Virus record (IMG/VR): IMGVR_UViG_3300017741_000037
Span: 1-27,620 of that record
Strand: one strand, 5' to 3'
Source: a virus
DNA length: 27,620 nt
In this document: positions 2,103-26,084 of the stretch, in pieces
Layout of the letters: each line of letters opens with the position of its first letter
How positions within the stretch are numbered: position 1 is the first letter of the stretch
The notes under the pieces: generated by a model
Seen by the model: only the letters and a program-made list of their open reading frames with translations
Told to the model about the DNA's origin: nothing
The model's database searches: none
Translations under genes and position numbers: made by a program

Positions 2103-2199
2103 AGGGGGAGTAAAACGTAATATCCTAAGAACACAATCGACGGATTGCTTAGGTTGGGACTCTGATGCTGCAAGCGCGCTATAAGGAGTGAAGCCCCCT
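2103..2199 (+). ncRNA. Putative structured RNA upstream of the tRNAs
   Basis: This 97-nt non-coding segment folds by eye into a three-way junction. P1 pairs AGGGGG (2103-2108) with CCCCCT (2194-2199). P2 pairs CCTAAG (2124-2129) with CTTAGG (2148-2153) and continues, past an AACA bulge, as CAATC (2134-2138) with GATTG (2143-2147), capped by GACG. P3 pairs ACTC (2159-2162) with GAGT (2186-2189). It is much richer in G and C than its surroundings and has no meaningful reading frame. It ends 6 nt before tRNA-Leu, so it may be co-transcribed and cut free by tRNA processing. It lacks a T-loop sequence, so it is not an ordinary tRNA. I do not recognise an RNA class. It could be a phage sRNA, a degenerate tRNA-like element or a processing signal. 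Confidence 0.45.
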
Positions 2200-2205
2200 T
2201 AATTT

Positions 2206-2291
2206 GCTACTGTGGTGGAATAGGTAGACACGAGGGACTTAAAATCCCTTGAACAGTAATGTTCGTGCGAGTTCGATTCTCGCCAGTAGTA
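2206..2291 (+). tRNA. tRNA-Leu (anticodon UAA)
   Basis: The acceptor stem is GCTACTG (2206-2212) with CAGTAGT (2284-2290), which includes one G-U closing pair. The anticodon arm is AGGGA-CTTAAAA-TCCCT, with anticodon TAA. A long variable arm (GAAC...GTTC) marks a class II tRNA, as expected for leucine. The T-loop GTTCGATTC is present. The CCA end is not encoded (ACA follows). It reads UUA, a codon used very heavily in the surrounding phage genes. Confidence 0.95.
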
Positions 2292-2299
2292 CAACTTAC

Positions 2300-2373
2300 G
2301 GACTCGTAGCTCAATTGGATAGAGCATCGCCCTTCTAAGGCGACGGTTATAGGTTCGACTCCTATCGGGTTCA
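2300..2373 (+). tRNA. tRNA-Arg (anticodon UCU)
   Basis: The acceptor stem is GGACTCG (2300-2306) with CGGGTTC (2366-2372), including two G-U pairs. The D-arm is AGCTCAATTGGATAGAGC. The anticodon stem is TCGCC with GGCGA, and the loop CTTCTAA gives anticodon TCT. The T-loop GTTCGACTC is present and no CCA is encoded. It reads AGA, the arginine codon that dominates the structural genes here. It lies 8 nt after tRNA-Leu, so the two are one transcript. Confidence 0.95.
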
Positions 2374-2389
2374 CATTTATAAATTATTT

Positions 2390-2421
2390 AAAGGGAATAG
2401 CTTGGCTATTACCCTTTTTTT
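2390..2421 (+). terminator. Rho-independent terminator after the tRNA pair
   Basis: AAAGGG (2390-2395) and AATAGC (2396-2401) pair with GCTATT (2405-2410) and CCCTTT (2412-2417). This gives a 12-bp stem with one bulged A (2411) and a three-base TTG loop, running straight into a seven-T tract (2415-2421). It is a textbook intrinsic terminator and closes the RNA island. Confidence 0.9.
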
Positions 2422-14395: not shown

Positions 14396-17300
14396 ATGGC
14401 AACATCACCAACAGCATCAGTTACTTCAATAACCCCTAGCATTATAGATGGGGAAGGGTTTGAACTTTCAACTCAAACTATTATACCTAGTGCTGAAGTA
14501 ACAGCTACTTTTGTCCCATTTCAAGACATAATAGAAGTTTGGGCTTATGATCCTAATAATAATTTATTAGGAGGAGATAGTAATTTTCAAGATTATATAC
14601 TTGTTGATTCTCCTTCTGGTGAGGAAGAAATTGATGGTAGTACTAGTGAATTAAAGTTAAATCCTGAACAAGATTCTGTAAATTTAGGATTTGATATAGG
14701 TACTGTAAATTTAGTTTACAATTTTATTAGACCTCAATTAGGTAGTAGTAACCAAGATGATTCTGATTTAAAATATTATTTAGCAGAAATTTCTTCAGAT
14801 AGAACAGAATTAAGATTTAAATCAAATTATATTGATAATAATATTATAATATCAACATATAATTCATTTAAGGCTCAATTAAATTCTAATGAAAATTTTG
14901 CAGATGAATTTTATGTAAATTTTGGAGATAATGAATATCAAGTAGGTATAAATTGTACTTTAGACACATCAGTTGATCAATTTTCAGTTTTAGTAAAGTT
15001 GTATGATGCTTTACCTCCTCAATTTTCACTAGATGATTTAGCCTGTTTTGTTATAAAACCTGCAGAGTCTTTAGCATATAATATTCAATTCCCAGAACTC
15101 CCAGATCCTGAAGACTTTACATATATTAAAGGTCCTAACTATAAATTAAAAGTAAATGAATTTTTAAATAATTCAACTAATTTAAAGTCTAAAAATGAAT
15201 TATTACAGACCAATTCTTCAGGTTCACTAGATGAACTGCAAAACATACTTAACAGGAAAGGTGTAACATTAACACCTAATTATTCATATGATACTTTTAA
15301 TGAATTTGTTAATTTTTCTTCTGCTAAAAAAAGAATCGAAAATTTTGTAGAAAAAGTAACTCAAATCCAATCTTACCAAGCTGATATAGATACTTTAAGT
15401 AGCATTTCAGGACCAACATCAGAATCAATATCAATTTCATCAAGTGTAGCTTCAGCTTATAATAACATTCAAAATTTAATTACTAATTTTGATGGGTATG
15501 AATATTTTTTATATTATGGAACAGGTTCATCTTCATATCCAAAAACAGGTTCAGCATATCCATTTGAATTATTACCTACTACTAATGCAAGTGTTTCTGT
15601 TTGGTTAGGTAGTGATGTTGAAAATACTCAATATTATGGAGGTATTTTATTATCAGCTTCATTGTATGATTATAGTAATCAAAACTGGTTATATTATACA
15701 ATACCAGAATTCATTAGAGATAATAGTAACAACAACCAATATCTTGAATTTTCAAATATGGTTGGTCAACATTTTGATGAAATATGGTTATATACTAGAG
15801 CTGTAACTGAAAAATTAAATACAACATCTGAATTAAATGATGGTGTACCTCTAGATTTAGCCGATGATGTTATTACATCCTTAGGTTATACTGGATTTGG
15901 AAATAATTTTAATAACCAAGATAATTTTATTGGGTTAGTAGGTGAAGATAATGGATCTTATGTCCCACCAACTGGGAGTGAATTAATTACAAATTATATA
16001 GCAGTTAATGGTGGTACTATAGTTAATTATTGGGATCCAGATTATTCATGGGAGTATTATGTTCAATCACTTTCAGATCCTGGATATCCTTATGCTATAG
16101 ATAAAGTTAGTAAAGAAATTTATAAGCGCCTTTACCACAACATGAACTACCTTGTTAAGAAAAAAGGTACAATTGCAGGTTTAAGACAACTTATTAATAT
16201 TTGGGGTATTCCAAATACAATTCTCCGAATTAATGAATTTGGAGGTAAAGATAGAGATAATTCTGATGATTATGATTTATGGTATAACAGATATAGTTAT
16301 GCTTATACTCCTGTTTCTACTCAAAATGTAGCAAGTTCATCAGTTGTATTTCCTTGGATGCCATTAGAAAGAAATAGAATTGTTGATAGTAAAAATATTG
16401 TACCTGATAGTTTCCAATTTAGGTTTAAAACTACAGGTTACCCATCATCATCATATGCTGGTGAGTTTTTTACTCAATCTTTAGCAGTTAAAAAATCAGA
16501 TGGTGATGACACTTCAACAGAATTTGATTTTGGTATTTCATTATTTTATGAACCTGTAGCTACAGGATCATATTCAGGTTCAGCATCTAGTGAATATGAA
16601 AATTGGGGTAAAATGAGATTTTACCTATCAGGATCTTCAGCTAATGGTGGTATAGCAACGTCAGATGATATATATCTCCCATTCTTCGACAAAGGTTGGT
16701 GGACAGTAATGTTACAACGAGATCAACACGTATCTGCAAGTGATAACACAAATGCTACAACTTATACTTTATATGCTAAAAATACAATCTATAATGGTTG
16801 GGATGGAGCTCAAATAGGATTTGAAGGTTCAGCAAGTATAACATCTGATGTTTCCCAATCCATAAATGAAGCTTGGAATAAATTTGGAACTTCTGTTTAT
16901 GATGGTATTTACTTAGGAGGATTTGTTTCTGGTTCTACAGTAGGTAGTGAAACTTTAGGGCTATCAGGAAAAATATTTTCAGGTTCTTTACAAGAATTTA
17001 GATATTATTCAAACGACATACCAGAAGCTACATTTAATGACTTTGTAATGAACCCTGAATCTATTGAAGGTAATGCAATTACAGGTTCACAGTCATCATT
17101 TGATATAGTTAATTTTAGAGCACCCTTAGGTAATGAATTAGAAAGTATATTTACTTCTTCTTATAGTTCTTCCTATTCAGAATCAATGCAATCAATGCAT
17201 CCTGCAATTCAAGGTCAAGCTCCAATATTAATTACAGGTTCATTTTTTAATCCAACTACTTCTACTACTTCAAGTGAATATAGAGTTTTATATTATGAAA

Positions 17301-20300
17301 ATACAACAAACAGAACTTTTAGTAAGACAAATACCGAAGTATATTTCTTAGACCAACCAGCTATTGGATTCAGAAATAGAATTTCAGATAAAATTCAACT
17401 AAGAGATGGAGATGATTTTGGTAATATATTATCAAATAGAATTAGTATTCAACAAGATTATCAAATTAGTAGAAGTTACACTGAAAATATTAATAATTTA
17501 GAGGTAGCATTTTCACCACAAGATGAAGTAAATGATGATATTATTGCTTCATTTGGGTATGGTGTAATAGCTGATGCTATAGCAGATCCAAGATTTATAT
17601 CATCATCGGATGATTATTACCCCCAATTAAGAAAAATTGCAGAATCTTATTTTAAGAAATACACAGAAGGAAATGTTTACGATTATTTAAGATTAATTAA
17701 ATATTTTGATAATTCAATATTCCAAGCAATCAAAGCTTATGTTCCTGCTCGTACAAGTTTATCTACAGGTATTGTTATTAAACAACACATGCTTGAAAGA
17801 AATAGATTCCAACCTGTACAAATAACAGAAGGAACCCCAATTGCTGTAACACCTTCAGGAGCATTAAATACTCCAATTATAATGGAGAATATAGTATTAT
17901 CTGGAAGTATAGATGCAATTAATCAAGAAGCACCTTCAGGTAGTACAGGGGGTTCAGCAAATAGGTTTAATTATGTAGATAGTTCATTTTTAGTAGAATC
18001 AGGATCAGAACAAGGTAACCCTCATAGTACTCCATTTGGTAAAATTGTAAATACTCAATCTTACGAAATTACAAATGAAACAGTATTAGGATTAGTAGAA
18101 GAAACTATAAATAACCAGCATGAGTTTTATGATGGAGAATTTAGTGGTAGTGAAGAAGTAGTAACATCTCAATCAGCCTTTTATAATCCTTTTATTAAAC
18201 AGTCTAATGTACCAGTATTTTATACTACAGAAGTTAAAAATTTAGATCCTTTACAATCATCATCAGCTTTCTTCACCCAATTATCTGGTTTTAATATATC
18301 TGGAGATGTTTCAGCTTATACAGCAAGTGGACAATTTCAAATAGCTTTAGTAGATGTTACAGTTGCAGCACCCACATTCCCCAAATCATATACAAATTTA
18401 CAAGCAACTGGTTCTAATGGATTAACAGGTGTTGTATTAGATATGGATATTACAGCCTCTAATGGTACACAACCAGGTGATATTGCTAATAATATTACTA
18501 TTGTTAATACAGGATCAGGATGGAATGGTAATTCACCGGTAGAATTAAGAATTAACAATGACCAATTTGAAAATTTTGGTCCTGGTCAAGGTGTAATATT
18601 TGATATAGGAGCAGATCTTTTAAGTAATGCATCTGCATCAACTCTTTCAAATCAAGAAATAGACCAATTCCTTCAAGGTCCTGCTTATTTAGAAGTAACA
18701 TCAGGAAGCTCAGATATATCAAAAACAGCATTAGCTAATGGTTATAGATATATTCCTTCATCTTCATTAGTTGTAGCTACAGGATCTTTATTAGATAGTT
18801 CTTTCGTTTTACCAGGGGCATCCCCTTCAGAAGGCATTCAGTTTCAACCTAGTGATTTTAATCAATTCCATAAAGATAGATTTGGTCCAACACAATTACA
18901 AGAAGGAGTAAAAATGCAACCTATTAATAGACCTTTAGTTATAGGTTTATGGAGGCAAGATTGGGGTTCAGCAATAACCTCACAATATTTAACTGAAATA
19001 TATGTAGAAAGTTGGGATAGTAATGGGTATAATAGTGGAAGTTGGTGGCAAAGTGTAGATACCCTTGGAGGGCCTATATTAAACCAGATGGTTTCAGAAG
19101 AAGTCATGAATGAACTCATTAATCCTGATTTACAAGGTATAAACACCCCAGCTACAAGATCATTTTATGTTTCTTATGTAGGTATTCCTTATGTAAATAG
19201 TCCAAGTATAAATTTAGCGGGTTCAAGTAGTTTAGGCAACGTAATTACAACTAATACTGTAGAAGGAATTGGGGTTAATGCTTTACAAAACCCTTCAAAT
19301 ACTGAAACGTTAAAGTTTAAAGCTTTTTCTGCATATACTGGTGTAGGTCAGCTTGGAAATTTAGATACTCCAACCTTAAAAGCAGATTTAACAGCAGTAT
19401 TTCCTAGTACAGCATCATATACTTATATTGATACTGATGGTCCTTTGGCTGGAGTAGGTTTTGGTATAGATTATAGAATAATAGATCTTTCGGCTAATAA
19501 ACAAAGAACAAGTTTATCATTTTACAATACCGATCCAATAATTAATACTTTTACTAAAAATTGGAATAACTATCTATTCCAAATTTATCAAAATAATGAA
19601 GAAAATAATGTTGGTCAAAGACCTATTCTTCAATATGGTGTAATTCCAACCGTTGATCAACTTGCCCAATTTGGTGATTCATCCAAACCCTCAGGTGCTA
19701 CAGTAGGAAGTGGACTTGTAGGTGGGAGAGTAGATTATAAACAATTATTTAAAGTTACAGATAGTAGTGCATCAGAAAATACATATTTTATTGCTACTAC
19801 TAATAGACAAGCCCTTTTACCTTATCTTGATGATAATACAGGCACCACATATTATAGATTATTCAGTAAAGGAATGGATATCTGGGCTTATGATGATTTT
19901 GGTAGTGGGTTAGAGATAAGACCTGTTACAGAAGTATTCGATTTTACTACTAATAGTGTATTAACTATTGATACAACTGAAACAAGTAGTGGTCTCTTCA
20001 CCAACCCATCTGCACAAAATCAGCAATTTAATGGAATCTACCAATCTACTATCATCCCAGATTTAAGTAATAACTATAATCGTATAAATGGAAAATATTA
20101 TGTATTAGAAACTAATCCAACCATACTACCAGGAGTTAGAAACGCAGCAACCCCTCAACCAAATAATAACTTTGCTCATATAACAGCATCATGGGATACA
20201 CATCAAAGTTACTCAGGAACACAAAATGATTATGATGTAAAACCAATAAACACTACTCGCCCATCAGTAGGTTCAACTGTAAAAGCTTCTAATAGATATG

Positions 20301-22903
20301 TGTTAAGTAATTTTTACGGAGCAAGAGATAATGCACTTCTTGATATTAATGCTAATACTCCAACAAAAGGAACATCAAGTTTATATCCATTTTTACTTAA
20401 TACTACATCATCTTTCCCTGATTTAAATTATACACCTCCTCAGTACTATTCTGGTAGTTATGCTACTGTTCCAACAGCTCTATCAATTAATAATCAAAGT
20501 GTAAACCCTACAACAGGAAATACTATTCAAAATGAAATAGCTTTTAGTCAAGATCCTAACATAAAATTTACAATTGGTTTTACAGGTTCACTATCCTCTT
20601 TTTCTAGTTCCTTAGGACCGAGCAATATTATTGATACAAACCAATTAACTCTAGCTTCTCAACCATTTACCTTTGGTGCATATACAAATCTATATCAACC
20701 AAGTTCAAGAGTGTATTATGGTACAGTATCTGGAAACGGAGGTTTTAATTTTTCAACATTGTACTCTCAATATAATATAGATCCTTACATTGAAGATACA
20801 GGAATAGGATTTTTTGAAAATACAATTTATTTTGCTACCCCAAATAATTATAATGATAATAGACCTAATAAATTTAAATTTGTAGTAGAAAATCAAAATG
20901 GAATAAATACTACATCTAATTTAGCACCAATATTTTCTCAATCAGCTCAACAAGTTGCTACACCTGAAAGTAATTATACTATGTTAGCTTCTATATTACC
21001 AAGATATTCTGGAAGTAAAGTAACTAGTGCTAACTATAATTTCTACTCAGCTCCAACCCCACCTAAAAATGAAAAATTATTATTAGGAACAGGAAGTTTT
21101 GAAATTTTAAACACCTTTAATGCAACAGGTTCTACATTAACTGCAGCAGGTGTTACACAATCTAATACAACAGGTATTGGTTCTGGAGCAGAATTTACAT
21201 TTAACTTAGCAACTACTCAATCTATTGGTAGTATAGTAGTCACTTCAGGAGGTAAAAATTACAAACCAGGAGATGCATTAATATTTACATCTCAATCATT
21301 AGGTGCAACTGTACCAAATGGGTTAGATTTAACACTGTTATTAAATGCAAGTAACTTTAAATTGTTAAAACCTACAGAATTTGCTGATGGAACATCAGGC
21401 AGTTGGATAGGAGATCAATCTTATGGTAAAACTGCAGCATTAGATAAAAATCCAATTTATTTTGCTCATTTTAAAACCTCTAGGAATAATTTAGAATTAG
21501 ATGATACTTACACATTTTCAATTGACCAATTAATCTTAGCTCCATTCGAAGATGTTTCTGCAGATTCATTATCAACACCACCCCAAACAGTAGATATTAA
21601 TGGTTCAAATAATAGATTATTAGATGTTACAAGCACATTTGAAAAAGGAAGAAAAGCTTCTATAACATATCAAGTCCCTATTCAAACATACCCTGTACTT
21701 TCAATTCCACGTAATACAGATAGCGCCATAACACAATCACCAGCTATATCACGATCAGTAGTTACAAATTACCAAACATTAACAATTGGAGATAATGAAA
21801 TTTTCCAAGGTGGGGCTGAATTTGAAACAATATTAACAACTCAACCTGATGGAGATGGTCCAAATTTCTTAGAATCAGCTAGTATAACTAGAGGTTTGAA
21901 TATTGGTCTTATTCCTGAATCTGGTTCAACAAATGGTAGAGAAGTTATTAGTTACTTAGGTACTTCTATTTCTTCATCAGGAGGTAATACAATTACATAT
22001 GGTCATGAATTTTGGGCATTTGCTTCAGGTTCAGATTCAGAAGGAGGATATATAGATTTAAAAGGAGGCCCTGCTCGTATGTCTGCTAGTTTAGCCCCGG
22101 GATCAGGTAATTTTGGTTTTTATTTTGGTGATATTTTAGCAATAGCCCATAGTTACAATTATTGGGTTAAAGATCAATTACTTTCAGAATATACAGCAAG
22201 TGCTGCAACACCAGTTGCAAAATTTAAGGTACCGGGATTACCTACAGCATCATCAACACAATCCCCAATACCAGTTGCTTCTTCATCACTTGCAAATTAT
22301 AATACATTTAACTTCTCATCTTCAGAAGCAGGAGCCAATGTGTTAGGTTATGAAGATTTTGGTTTACCATTCTTAATTGAAAGAGGAGATGAAATTAGAG
22401 TAACTTATGATATTAATTTTACAGGTTCATCATACTCAGACATCACCCCAGATGTGCAAGCTTTAGCAAATTACCGTACTCAAGATTTTGTAGTAAAGGA
22501 TATTGGATTTAGTGTTAGTGGTAGTAGTACAGGTTTACCCTCTATTGTATTTGCTAATAGTGGACCATCTGCTTCAATTTCTTCAAGTAGATTATTTGAT
22601 AGAATTTACGTAAATCCAAACCCTGCAGAATTAGCAGAACCAATACCTTCGGGTTCAATATATCAATTTACAATTAGAAGAAAAATTAATGCTGATGATA
22701 GAATTATTATTTATCAAACACCACCAATTAATGCTTTAGGTTCACAAACACCTACAGGAGATGGATACTTAATACCTAATGATTTTACACCAACACAAAA
22801 GAAAAACGTTCAAACTTTAATTAATCAGTTGAAGAATCAAAATGCAGTTAATACAAGTACTACTGCACAACAATCCCCAGGAACAGGACCTTCAACAGCT
22901 TAA
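14396..22903 (+). CDS. Giant baseplate/tail-fibre structural protein (2835 aa)
   Basis: One uninterrupted frame of 2835 codons, rich in Ser, Thr, Asn and Tyr, takes up almost a third of the window. Residues about 430-620 look like a conserved baseplate portion, with VSKEIYKRLYHNMNYLVKKK (near 570) and GTIAGLRQLINIWGIPNTIL (about 591-610). Residues about 670-890 form a LamG/concanavalin-like jelly roll ending FSGSLQEFRYYSNDIPEATF. Residues about 1070-1140 contain a conserved helical block (NVYDYLRLIKYFDNSIFQAI, then KAYVPARTSLSTGIVIKQHM) that I recall from tail proteins of Bacteroidota phages. Two Gly-rich beta modules lie near 1322-1390 and 2240-2320. The rest is beta-rich, unidentified sequence. 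From its place after gp6 it could stand in for T4 gp7 or gp10, or be a fused tail-fibre protein; both are inference. Coding is certain, virion role very likely. Confidence 0.85.
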   Translation: MATSPTASVTSITPSIIDGEGFELSTQTIIPSAEVTATFVPFQDIIEVWAYDPNNNLLGGDSNFQDYILVDSPSGEEEIDGSTSELKLNPEQDSVNLGFDIGTVNLVYNFIRPQLGSSNQDDSDLKYYLAEISSDRTELRFKSNYIDNNIIISTYNSFKAQLNSNENFADEFYVNFGDNEYQVGINCTLDTSVDQFSVLVKLYDALPPQFSLDDLACFVIKPAESLAYNIQFPELPDPEDFTYIKGPNYKLKVNEFLNNSTNLKSKNELLQTNSSGSLDELQNILNRKGVTLTPNYSYDTFNEFVNFSSAKKRIENFVEKVTQIQSYQADIDTLSSISGPTSESISISSSVASAYNNIQNLITNFDGYEYFLYYGTGSSSYPKTGSAYPFELLPTTNASVSVWLGSDVENTQYYGGILLSASLYDYSNQNWLYYTIPEFIRDNSNNNQYLEFSNMVGQHFDEIWLYTRAVTEKLNTTSELNDGVPLDLADDVITSLGYTGFGNNFNNQDNFIGLVGEDNGSYVPPTGSELITNYIAVNGGTIVNYWDPDYSWEYYVQSLSDPGYPYAIDKVSKEIYKRLYHNMNYLVKKKGTIAGLRQLINIWGIPNTILRINEFGGKDRDNSDDYDLWYNRYSYAYTPVSTQNVASSSVVFPWMPLERNRIVDSKNIVPDSFQFRFKTTGYPSSSYAGEFFTQSLAVKKSDGDDTSTEFDFGISLFYEPVATGSYSGSASSEYENWGKMRFYLSGSSANGGIATSDDIYLPFFDKGWWTVMLQRDQHVSASDNTNATTYTLYAKNTIYNGWDGAQIGFEGSASITSDVSQSINEAWNKFGTSVYDGIYLGGFVSGSTVGSETLGLSGKIFSGSLQEFRYYSNDIPEATFNDFVMNPESIEGNAITGSQSSFDIVNFRAPLGNELESIFTSSYSSSYSESMQSMHPAIQGQAPILITGSFFNPTTSTTSSEYRVLYYENTTNRTFSKTNTEVYFLDQPAIGFRNRISDKIQLRDGDDFGNILSNRISIQQDYQISRSYTENINNLEVAFSPQDEVNDDIIASFGYGVIADAIADPRFISSSDDYYPQLRKIAESYFKKYTEGNVYDYLRLIKYFDNSIFQAIKAYVPARTSLSTGIVIKQHMLERNRFQPVQITEGTPIAVTPSGALNTPIIMENIVLSGSIDAINQEAPSGSTGGSANRFNYVDSSFLVESGSEQGNPHSTPFGKIVNTQSYEITNETVLGLVEETINNQHEFYDGEFSGSEEVVTSQSAFYNPFIKQSNVPVFYTTEVKNLDPLQSSSAFFTQLSGFNISGDVSAYTASGQFQIALVDVTVAAPTFPKSYTNLQATGSNGLTGVVLDMDITASNGTQPGDIANNITIVNTGSGWNGNSPVELRINNDQFENFGPGQGVIFDIGADLLSNASASTLSNQEIDQFLQGPAYLEVTSGSSDISKTALANGYRYIPSSSLVVATGSLLDSSFVLPGASPSEGIQFQPSDFNQFHKDRFGPTQLQEGVKMQPINRPLVIGLWRQDWGSAITSQYLTEIYVESWDSNGYNSGSWWQSVDTLGGPILNQMVSEEVMNELINPDLQGINTPATRSFYVSYVGIPYVNSPSINLAGSSSLGNVITTNTVEGIGVNALQNPSNTETLKFKAFSAYTGVGQLGNLDTPTLKADLTAVFPSTASYTYIDTDGPLAGVGFGIDYRIIDLSANKQRTSLSFYNTDPIINTFTKNWNNYLFQIYQNNEENNVGQRPILQYGVIPTVDQLAQFGDSSKPSGATVGSGLVGGRVDYKQLFKVTDSSASENTYFIATTNRQALLPYLDDNTGTTYYRLFSKGMDIWAYDDFGSGLEIRPVTEVFDFTTNSVLTIDTTETSSGLFTNPSAQNQQFNGIYQSTIIPDLSNNYNRINGKYYVLETNPTILPGVRNAATPQPNNNFAHITASWDTHQSYSGTQNDYDVKPINTTRPSVGSTVKASNRYVLSNFYGARDNALLDINANTPTKGTSSLYPFLLNTTSSFPDLNYTPPQYYSGSYATVPTALSINNQSVNPTTGNTIQNEIAFSQDPNIKFTIGFTGSLSSFSSSLGPSNIIDTNQLTLASQPFTFGAYTNLYQPSSRVYYGTVSGNGGFNFSTLYSQYNIDPYIEDTGIGFFENTIYFATPNNYNDNRPNKFKFVVENQNGINTTSNLAPIFSQSAQQVATPESNYTMLASILPRYSGSKVTSANYNFYSAPTPPKNEKLLLGTGSFEILNTFNATGSTLTAAGVTQSNTTGIGSGAEFTFNLATTQSIGSIVVTSGGKNYKPGDALIFTSQSLGATVPNGLDLTLLLNASNFKLLKPTEFADGTSGSWIGDQSYGKTAALDKNPIYFAHFKTSRNNLELDDTYTFSIDQLILAPFEDVSADSLSTPPQTVDINGSNNRLLDVTSTFEKGRKASITYQVPIQTYPVLSIPRNTDSAITQSPAISRSVVTNYQTLTIGDNEIFQGGAEFETILTTQPDGDGPNFLESASITRGLNIGLIPESGSTNGREVISYLGTSISSSGGNTITYGHEFWAFASGSDSEGGYIDLKGGPARMSASLAPGSGNFGFYFGDILAIAHSYNYWVKDQLLSEYTASAATPVAKFKVPGLPTASSTQSPIPVASSSLANYNTFNFSSSEAGANVLGYEDFGLPFLIERGDEIRVTYDINFTGSSYSDITPDVQALANYRTQDFVVKDIGFSVSGSSTGLPSIVFANSGPSASISSSRLFDRIYVNPNPAELAEPIPSGSIYQFTIRRKINADDRIIIYQTPPINALGSQTPTGDGYLIPNDFTPTQKKNVQTLINQLKNQNAVNTSTTAQQSPGTGPSTA

Positions 22904-25634: not shown

Positions 25635-26084
25635 ATGCAATGGACTTATAAAACACAAGTAATGGAGAGTATCTCTGACTTTCCAGATGAAACTCATGGT
25701 TTCGTGTATATGATAACCCACAAACCTACAAAAAAGGCTTATCTTGGTAAGAAAATACTTCAAAATACTACTAAAGTAAAATTAGGTAAAAAAGAATTAG
25801 CTGAATATGCTGGGGTAGTAGGAAGGAAACCATCATATAAATTAGCAGTAAAAGAATCAAATTGGAAAACATATTGGGGTTCAAATAAATATCTTAAAGA
25901 ATTATACGAAACAGAACCAAGAGAAAATTTTGAGCGACATATTTTAATTTGTGCTCCTACAAAAAAGTTATTAACTTACTACGAAATAAAATATCAAATG
26001 ATATATCAAGTTTTAGAAAAACCCGAAGAATTCTTCAATGATAACATTCTCGGAAAGTTCTTCACTCGTGACTTTGATATCTAA
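25635..26084 (+). CDS. GIY-YIG endonuclease, SegE-like
   Basis: The product is 149 residues. GFVYMITHKPTKKAYLGKK (22-40) is a variant GIY-YIG core: the first motif is VYM and the second YLG. YYEIKYQMIYQ carries E117, fitting the catalytic glutamate, and FFNDNI carries N136 near the end, as in SegE-type proteins of T4-like phages. K39 and K40 follow the YLG motif as in that family. It may be a free-standing homing or host-DNA nuclease. It lies at the join between late tail genes and replication genes, 1 nt after the upstream stop, with a promoter-like box after it. Family call is good; target unknown. Confidence 0.82.
   Translation: MQWTYKTQVMESISDFPDETHGFVYMITHKPTKKAYLGKKILQNTTKVKLGKKELAEYAGVVGRKPSYKLAVKESNWKTYWGSNKYLKELYETEPRENFERHILICAPTKKLLTYYEIKYQMIYQVLEKPEEFFNDNILGKFFTRDFDI

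Follow-up and report, generated by a model that had tools for sequence, protein, structure and literature searches.

A conserved three-way-junction RNA of about 97 nucleotides encoded in phage tRNA arrays

The role of RNAs other than tRNAs in phage tRNA clusters (T4 species 1/2, GOLLD, ROOL) is a question of long standing, and it is posed again by positions 2103-2199 of a 27,620-base virus record from IMG/VR (the window, i.e. the whole stretch of DNA analysed), where a sequence-only reading had proposed an undescribed structured RNA beside a tRNA pair. The proposed architecture proved to be exactly the minimum-energy fold of the segment: a three-way junction in which an outer stem (P1, AGGGGG/CCCCCT) encloses a bulged 11-bp hairpin (2124-2153; CCTAAG/CTTAGG and CAATC/GATTG, with a bulge AACA and a loop GACG) and a second stem (P3, ACTC 2159-2162/GAGT 2186-2189), the latter gaining one extra G-U pair (2163-2185) in the window sequence (Table 1). 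Similarly, the segment is GC-richer (0.495) than the window (0.31) and the upstream gene (0.28), is overlapped by no open reading frame of at least 50 aa, and ends 6 nt 5' of tRNA-Leu, all as had been claimed; its upstream neighbour is a short ORF ending at 2090. The RNA cluster is closed by a terminator-like hairpin that a simple scan missed because of its bulge; no promoter was identified. The covariance model built for the family (R1) matched the window copy, which is within its training set, with 125.7 bits at 2098-2205.

Table 1. Positions of the RNA, its structural elements and its neighbours in the window, and loci of further RNA families in other contigs
Feature	Position	Strand	Evidence or remark
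Whole 97-nt RNA, three-way junction	2103-2199	+	R1 match and independent near copies by DNA patterns
P1 5' strand AGGGGG	2103-2108	+	pairs with 2194-2199; AU/GC/UA and GC/AU compensatory changes in relatives
Junction J1/2, AGUAAAACGUAAUAU, conserved core AAACGUAA	2109-2123	+	near-invariant A1 columns
C2116, proposed tertiary Watson-Crick partner of G2156	2116	+	top-scoring pair outside helices
P2a 5' strand CCUAAG (3' strand 2148-2153)	2124-2129	+	compensatory changes, 3/6 pairs in A3
Bulge AACA, 4 nt	2130-2133	+	sequence varies among relatives
P2b 5' strand CAAUC (3' strand 2143-2147)	2134-2138	+	compensatory variants in relatives
GACG tetraloop	2139-2142	+	retained in most diverged-form copies as well
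P2b 3' strand GAUUG	2143-2147	+	covariation
P2a 3' strand CUUAGG	2148-2153	+	covariation
Junction J2/3 UUGGG	2154-2158	+	contains proposed tertiary partner G2156
P3 5' strand ACUCU (3' strand GGAGU 2185-2189)	2159-2163	+	compensatory variants in relatives
Small apical hairpin GCU-GCA-AGC	2167-2175	+	weak, no covariation
Self-complementary loop segment AGCGCGCU, GCGCGC core	2173-2180	+	candidate kissing/dimer contact
P3 3' strand GGAGU	2185-2189	+	covariation
Junction J3/1 GAAG	2190-2193	+	invariant in main form
P1 3' strand CCCCCU	2194-2199	+	covariation
tRNA-Leu (TAA)	2206-2292	+	ARAGORN, Rfam
tRNA-Arg (TCT)	2300-2374	+	ARAGORN, Rfam
Terminator-like hairpin (one bulge) and T run, closing the RNA cluster	2390-2421	+	read from sequence
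Family B	L002:543-665, L012:219-307, L036:4678-4766, L111 Tyr-Phe gap, about 40 others		
Family D	L012:387-478, L081:3301-3392, L080:3747-3838, L100:1676-1767		
Family E	L065:197-268	-	
Family E	L070:4963-5034, L075:280-351, L115:11078-11149, 9 more contigs		

The folding energy of the 97-nt RNA is not significant in itself (z -1.49), as 15 of 200 shuffled sequences fold equally well; none of the 459 tiled 97-nt segments of the window does so, which is partly owing to the higher GC content of the RNA. Since the fold is unremarkable alone, the case rests on relatives, which were sought in IMG/VR with exact and degenerate DNA patterns derived from different parts of the RNA. After removal of coding or unrelated short-pattern matches (L007-L010, L015-L017, L020, L120, L121, L123, L125-L127, L129 and others), the main form of the RNA was found in 56 other viral contigs, a count that comprises the model matches and five pattern matches. 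R1 detected exactly one copy per record in 24 whole virus records, and the length of the family in relatives ranges from 88 to 115 nt. The element is 84-98% identical between relatives and window, while the adjacent gene is 77-86% identical (L006 being omitted from the latter comparison because its contig ends there). Additionally, an R1 search of 43 loci collected for neighbouring RNAs revealed a diverged form, A' (L138, L139, L137, L144 and L171; E 8e-6 to 9e-3), which lies inside tRNA arrays and twice occupies the Leu-Arg gap where the main form also sits. A' retains P1, the strand AAA-GUAAAAUCC, the 3' strand UAAGG..AGC and P2 in a shortened version, while its P3 is longer than that of the main form and is tipped with GACG.

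The stems covary in these relatives, as judged by RNAalifold, shuffling and an R-scape-like test. RNAalifold applied to alignment A1 (39 distinct sequences aligned with MAFFT and not fitted to the structure; a larger set held 45) returned the same three-way junction with compensatory changes in 11 of its 21 pairs. For the named structure, double changes were observed in 14 of 27 pairs as against 7.5 in shuffles, the covariation score was 0.254 as against 0.126, and sliding the partners abolished the signal. Variants in relatives include CAGUC/GACUG, CAACC/GGUUG, CUAUC/GAUAG and CGGUC/GAUCG for P2b, and ACCUU/AAGGU, ACCAU/GUGGU and UCCUU/GAGGA for P3. When A' was included (A3), 97.7% of cells were paired and the score was 0.363 as against 0.150, although A3, unlike A1, was fitted to the structure, and this leaning to the model inflates its counts. 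The R-scape-like test combined a G statistic and average-product correction with a phylogeny-preserving null, in which inferred substitutions were replayed on a FastTree tree. Among the proposed pairs only, 10 of 21 reached E<0.05 in A3, distributed across P1, P2a, P2b and P3; among all column pairs at least 4 apart, three passed, and the P3 pairs 82-157 and 83-156 (A3 columns) were significant even against this background. In the unfitted alignment, with all pairs considered, only a P1 pair passed (E 0.003) and one P3 pair came close (0.06), the top-scoring pairs being mostly helix pairs; the high conservation of the family explains why so few pass the all-column test. It is thus the relatives, through conservation and covariation, that show the 97-nt RNA not to be a product of chance; a conserved RNA structure at 2103-2199 is almost certainly real, and the RNA is very probably a working small RNA.

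Beyond the helices, positions 2116 (J1/2) and 2156 (J2/3) are C-G in 25 sequences, G-C in three (the L018/L025/L065 clade) and A-U in three (L137/L138/L144), a pattern most readily explained by a tertiary Watson-Crick contact between the junction strands. A candidate pair inside the apical loop of P3 (window 2166-2170) displayed weak covariation, and the triloop of the small apical hairpin is variable (GNA, UUA, UAA, UAG, UGU), this hairpin being missing from the short form of P3. A CGU:ACG pseudoknot of J1/2 with the GACG loop was considered and rejected, as it is lost where CGU becomes GGU or CAU.

P3 occurs in three designs, namely long (as in the window, GAUGCUGNAAGCGCGCUA), middle (L100) and short (CUUC-AGCGCGCAU-GAAG), and AGCGCGC is retained in all of them, including at loci obtained with a pattern that did not require it. 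The loop of L082 reads GCGCGU, which is still self-complementary via G-U pairs, and the duplex energy of the bare GCGCGC hexamer is -10.9 kcal/mol. As the main-form loop stays palindromic while the surrounding stem is rebuilt, loop-loop dimers are suggested, and we tentatively propose, at somewhat less than even odds, that the main form may dimerise in this manner. The palindrome, nearly invariant in the main form, is absent from A', indicating that dimerisation is not the family-wide function.

A tRNA lies 3-14 nt away on at least one side in 48 of the 49 loci mapped with ARAGORN, commonly with 6 nt separating the RNA from the preceding tRNA and 7 nt from the following one. The earlier proposal that the RNA is made from the tRNA precursor draws its support from this position. 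Leu(TAA) and Arg(TCT) predominate among the adjoining tRNAs, which further include Leu(TAG), Thr, Gly, Met and Ser. The exception, L060, is a 23-kb record with zero tRNAs (it may be a fragment, with tRNAs possible elsewhere in that genome), which shares the upstream gene of the window and in which a terminator-like hairpin, GGGGGGAUA...UAUCCCCCC-UUUUU, comes after the RNA. The presence of the RNA without a tRNA in this record argues that it is maintained in its own right and is more than a leader or spacer for tRNAs.

To place the RNA among known elements, several collections were searched. Rfam 15 yielded no match at the gathering threshold and none overlapping 2103-2199 at E<=10; together with the covariation and the occurrence in more than 50 contigs, this strongly bears out the view that the element is a structured and undescribed RNA. 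The A' copy of L138 scored 18.9 of 42 bits with the wcaG model (E 6.8). A blastn comparison of three versions of the element with 50,697 phage records returned only one chance 19-mer, two exact patterns had no match in 84,980 bacterial and archaeal genomes, and models R1 and R2 found nothing above chance in the huge phages with the nearest portals, PAU, Lak-B5 and T4. As the cultured phage records searched hold no copy, its function is not readable from known biology. The open full-text literature on structured RNAs of phage tRNA arrays offered no description of the RNA, the matches being work on GOLLD/ROOL and general surveys; an earlier description in subscription papers is possible.

The closest parallels are T4 species 1/2 RNAs (rnaC and rnaD; NC_000866), which, like the 97-nt RNA, are small structured RNAs beside a phage tRNA-Arg. 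These are annotated as small stable RNAs with a spacing of 1-6 nt; however, they measure 119 and 139 nt and adopt other folds, R1, run with filters off, scored no higher than 8 bits in the tRNA region of T4, which is background level, and R2 had no match in the T4 record. GOLLD and ROOL, RNAs of phages or prophages that frequently occur close to tRNA islands, assemble into homo-oligomers whose contacts include kissing loops (PMC12286853). They span hundreds of nt as compared to about 97 nt here, and their Rfam models give no match to the present RNA, for which oligomers are only suggested by the palindromic loop of the main form. The structured RNAs manA and wcaG come almost only from marine metagenomes and T4-like phages and have been reported in linkage with protein genes, which they may regulate (PMC2864571), whereas the 97-nt RNA resides among tRNAs and reaches the gathering threshold of neither model. 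YrlA (Y RNA-like, RF02553) is a small RNA with a tRNA-like part, and its weak match covers the tRNAs rather than the 97-nt RNA; in the latter no tRNA or tmRNA fold was detected, ARAGORN giving only the two adjacent tRNAs. Thus, the kind of RNA is known from T4 rnaC/rnaD and GOLLD/ROOL, while the family itself is, by the homology tests applied here, not.

On balance, the 97-nt RNA is likely to be a processed, trans-acting small RNA from the phage tRNA array. The structured RNA of about 97 nt would form a cassette within the array, and its position beside tRNAs suggests that it would be transcribed together with them and released by the tRNA-maturing enzymes, i.e. by RNase P at the 5' end of the next tRNA and by 3' processing of the previous one. 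P1 would shield the ends of the freed RNA, which would adopt a three-way junction locked by the C2116-G2156 contact between the junction strands, the main form possibly being a homodimer via its GCGCGC loop. Its independence from particular tRNAs and its persistence where none is nearby suggest a product that would act in trans in the infected cell, its binding partner probably being a protein or the translation machinery. The close and regular tRNA spacing (typically 6-7 nt) would also suit an element acting in cis on the tRNA precursor, as a processing or leader sequence that aids RNase P or 3' processing and gives no free product. We consider this unlikely, as the identity and side of the adjoining tRNA vary, L060 carries the RNA in a record devoid of tRNAs, the majority of tRNAs in these arrays are not accompanied by the RNA (one copy being present per record), and its conservation is far above what a spacer needs. 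That the segment is a non-functional GC-rich spacer inherited by related contigs, as a single-sequence fold inside the shuffled range might indicate, is contradicted by the compensatory changes in all three helices; with a conservation exceeding that of adjacent coding DNA and retention across differing tRNA settings, this reading has a probability close to nil.

A decoy or mimic directed against host defence, which might titrate a nuclease targeting tRNA or rRNA, or a host RNA-binding protein, is compatible with a processed trans-acting RNA and would be a special case of it. Phage tRNA arrays are a plausible site for such a molecule, the structure is compact and protected, and the RNA is so far confined to phages, the two exact patterns being absent from bacterial and archaeal genomes. 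However, the RNA has neither a tRNA-like cloverleaf nor an Rfam tRNA match, and its likeness to E. coli rRNA is at chance level (of 200 shuffles, 31 or more reach the scores of the A and A' queries against 23S/16S), so that we regard the decoy as improbable. Mimicry of 23S rRNA, which strikes the eye in the H69 area for A' and in GAAAGACCC for family B (see below), was likewise rejected, being not above shuffles. Finally, self-cleaving ribozymes and riboswitch-like cis-regulators also feature three-way junctions, conserved junction nucleotides and a tertiary pair; yet no Rfam ribozyme or riboswitch matched even at E<=10, and only tRNAs, with no ORF, lie downstream. A hammerhead-like reading of UGAUG...GAAG fails because the hammerhead-core-like UGAUG of P3 is missing from the short form, and a function of this type is very unlikely.

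The carriers are large, uncultured phages, probably marine and probably infecting Bacteroidota. The window encodes a baseplate-wedge protein, a primase and a UV-endonuclease-like gene, and a 170-kb member (G007) encodes portal and prohead protease of T4-like families, its nearest portals being those of uncultured huge phages, followed by PAU and Prevotella Lak phages. A Shine-Dalgarno-like motif is missing and leaders are A-rich in approximately 95% of genes (G007 and window), from which, together with the Lak kinship, we infer Bacteroidota hosts. Two further genes of the window may be mentioned: a single ORF of 2835 aa (14396-22903) without Pfam or PHROG match, which adjoins the T4-like baseplate wedge gene and probably encodes a giant tail or fibre protein, and a gene for a 149-aa protein (25635-26084) with conflicting annotations, phrog_447 ('NAD synthetase') and the homing endonuclease families phrog_314 and phrog_7363, which is possibly a homing endonuclease.

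Besides the 97-nt RNA, at least two undescribed structured RNAs showing covariation, families B and E, occur in the same arrays. Family B (GAGAGGYAGUGAAGCU...GAAAGACCCGAARCCUCUC; 89-128 nt, 46 contigs) is absent from the window; its usual place is between tRNAs, frequently the Leu-Arg gap, which is empty in the window. It possesses an outer stem GAGAGG/CCUCUC, a conserved CCGAAAGACCCGAA and compensatory changes (GGGUUU/AAACCC, GGCAUU/AAUGCC, AGGUUU/AAACCU), with double changes in 3 of 20 alifold pairs despite a poorly aligned variable arm. Family E (approximately 72 nt, 13 contigs), often directly 5' of tRNA-Thr, displays double changes in 6 of 21 pairs, an outer stem GACCCAA/UUGGGUC with compensatory changes and a core UUGUGUAUGCAAUUAGCUC. 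Family D (GAGCGGGUAAAUAGUUCAGUACACC..., approximately 90 nt), also located in tRNA gaps, is, like several other recurring segments, too conserved for a covariation test, and neither B, D, E nor the other array RNAs matched Rfam.

The presence of several RNA families in these arrays suggests that phage tRNA genes also deliver other RNAs. A wider reading, speculative and in our estimation rather doubtful, is that the tRNA arrays of large, probably Bacteroidota-infecting phages could be general small-RNA arrays, whose cassettes (the 97-nt family, B, D, E and more) would be cut by tRNA enzymes and act jointly on host translation or defences, the 97-nt family as a loop-loop dimer. The 97-nt family is short and highly conserved, with three helices, a putative tertiary pair, a loop that occurs in three natural designs and a sister form that has diverged, and it is small enough to be folded, pulled down and mutated, so that the question of what such RNAs do becomes testable.

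Further non-coding segments recur in tRNA gaps (ACUGAGUCUAGCC..., UAGAGUGGAGCUACAGUGGCAGG..., one of about 240 nt and one of about 300 nt), for example in the gaps Pro-Thr of L114, Ser-Thr of L115, Arg-Pro of L117, Asn/Gly of L068 and L082, and Gly-Ala of L108 (304 nt), and are probably additional RNA families. Upstream of tRNAs or the element, a motif GUUCUUUGACAUAUU recurs (L069, L074, L108, L114, L118, L122), which may resemble the boxA-like antitermination signal of Bacteroidota rRNA operons. Short GC-rich hairpins also occupy tRNA gaps, with a different filler in each phage (L005:214-264, and L033 and L035 after the element), their sequences being GCUCACCC.../GGGUGAGC, ACACACCU.../AGGUGUGU and GCCGGGAGUUA....
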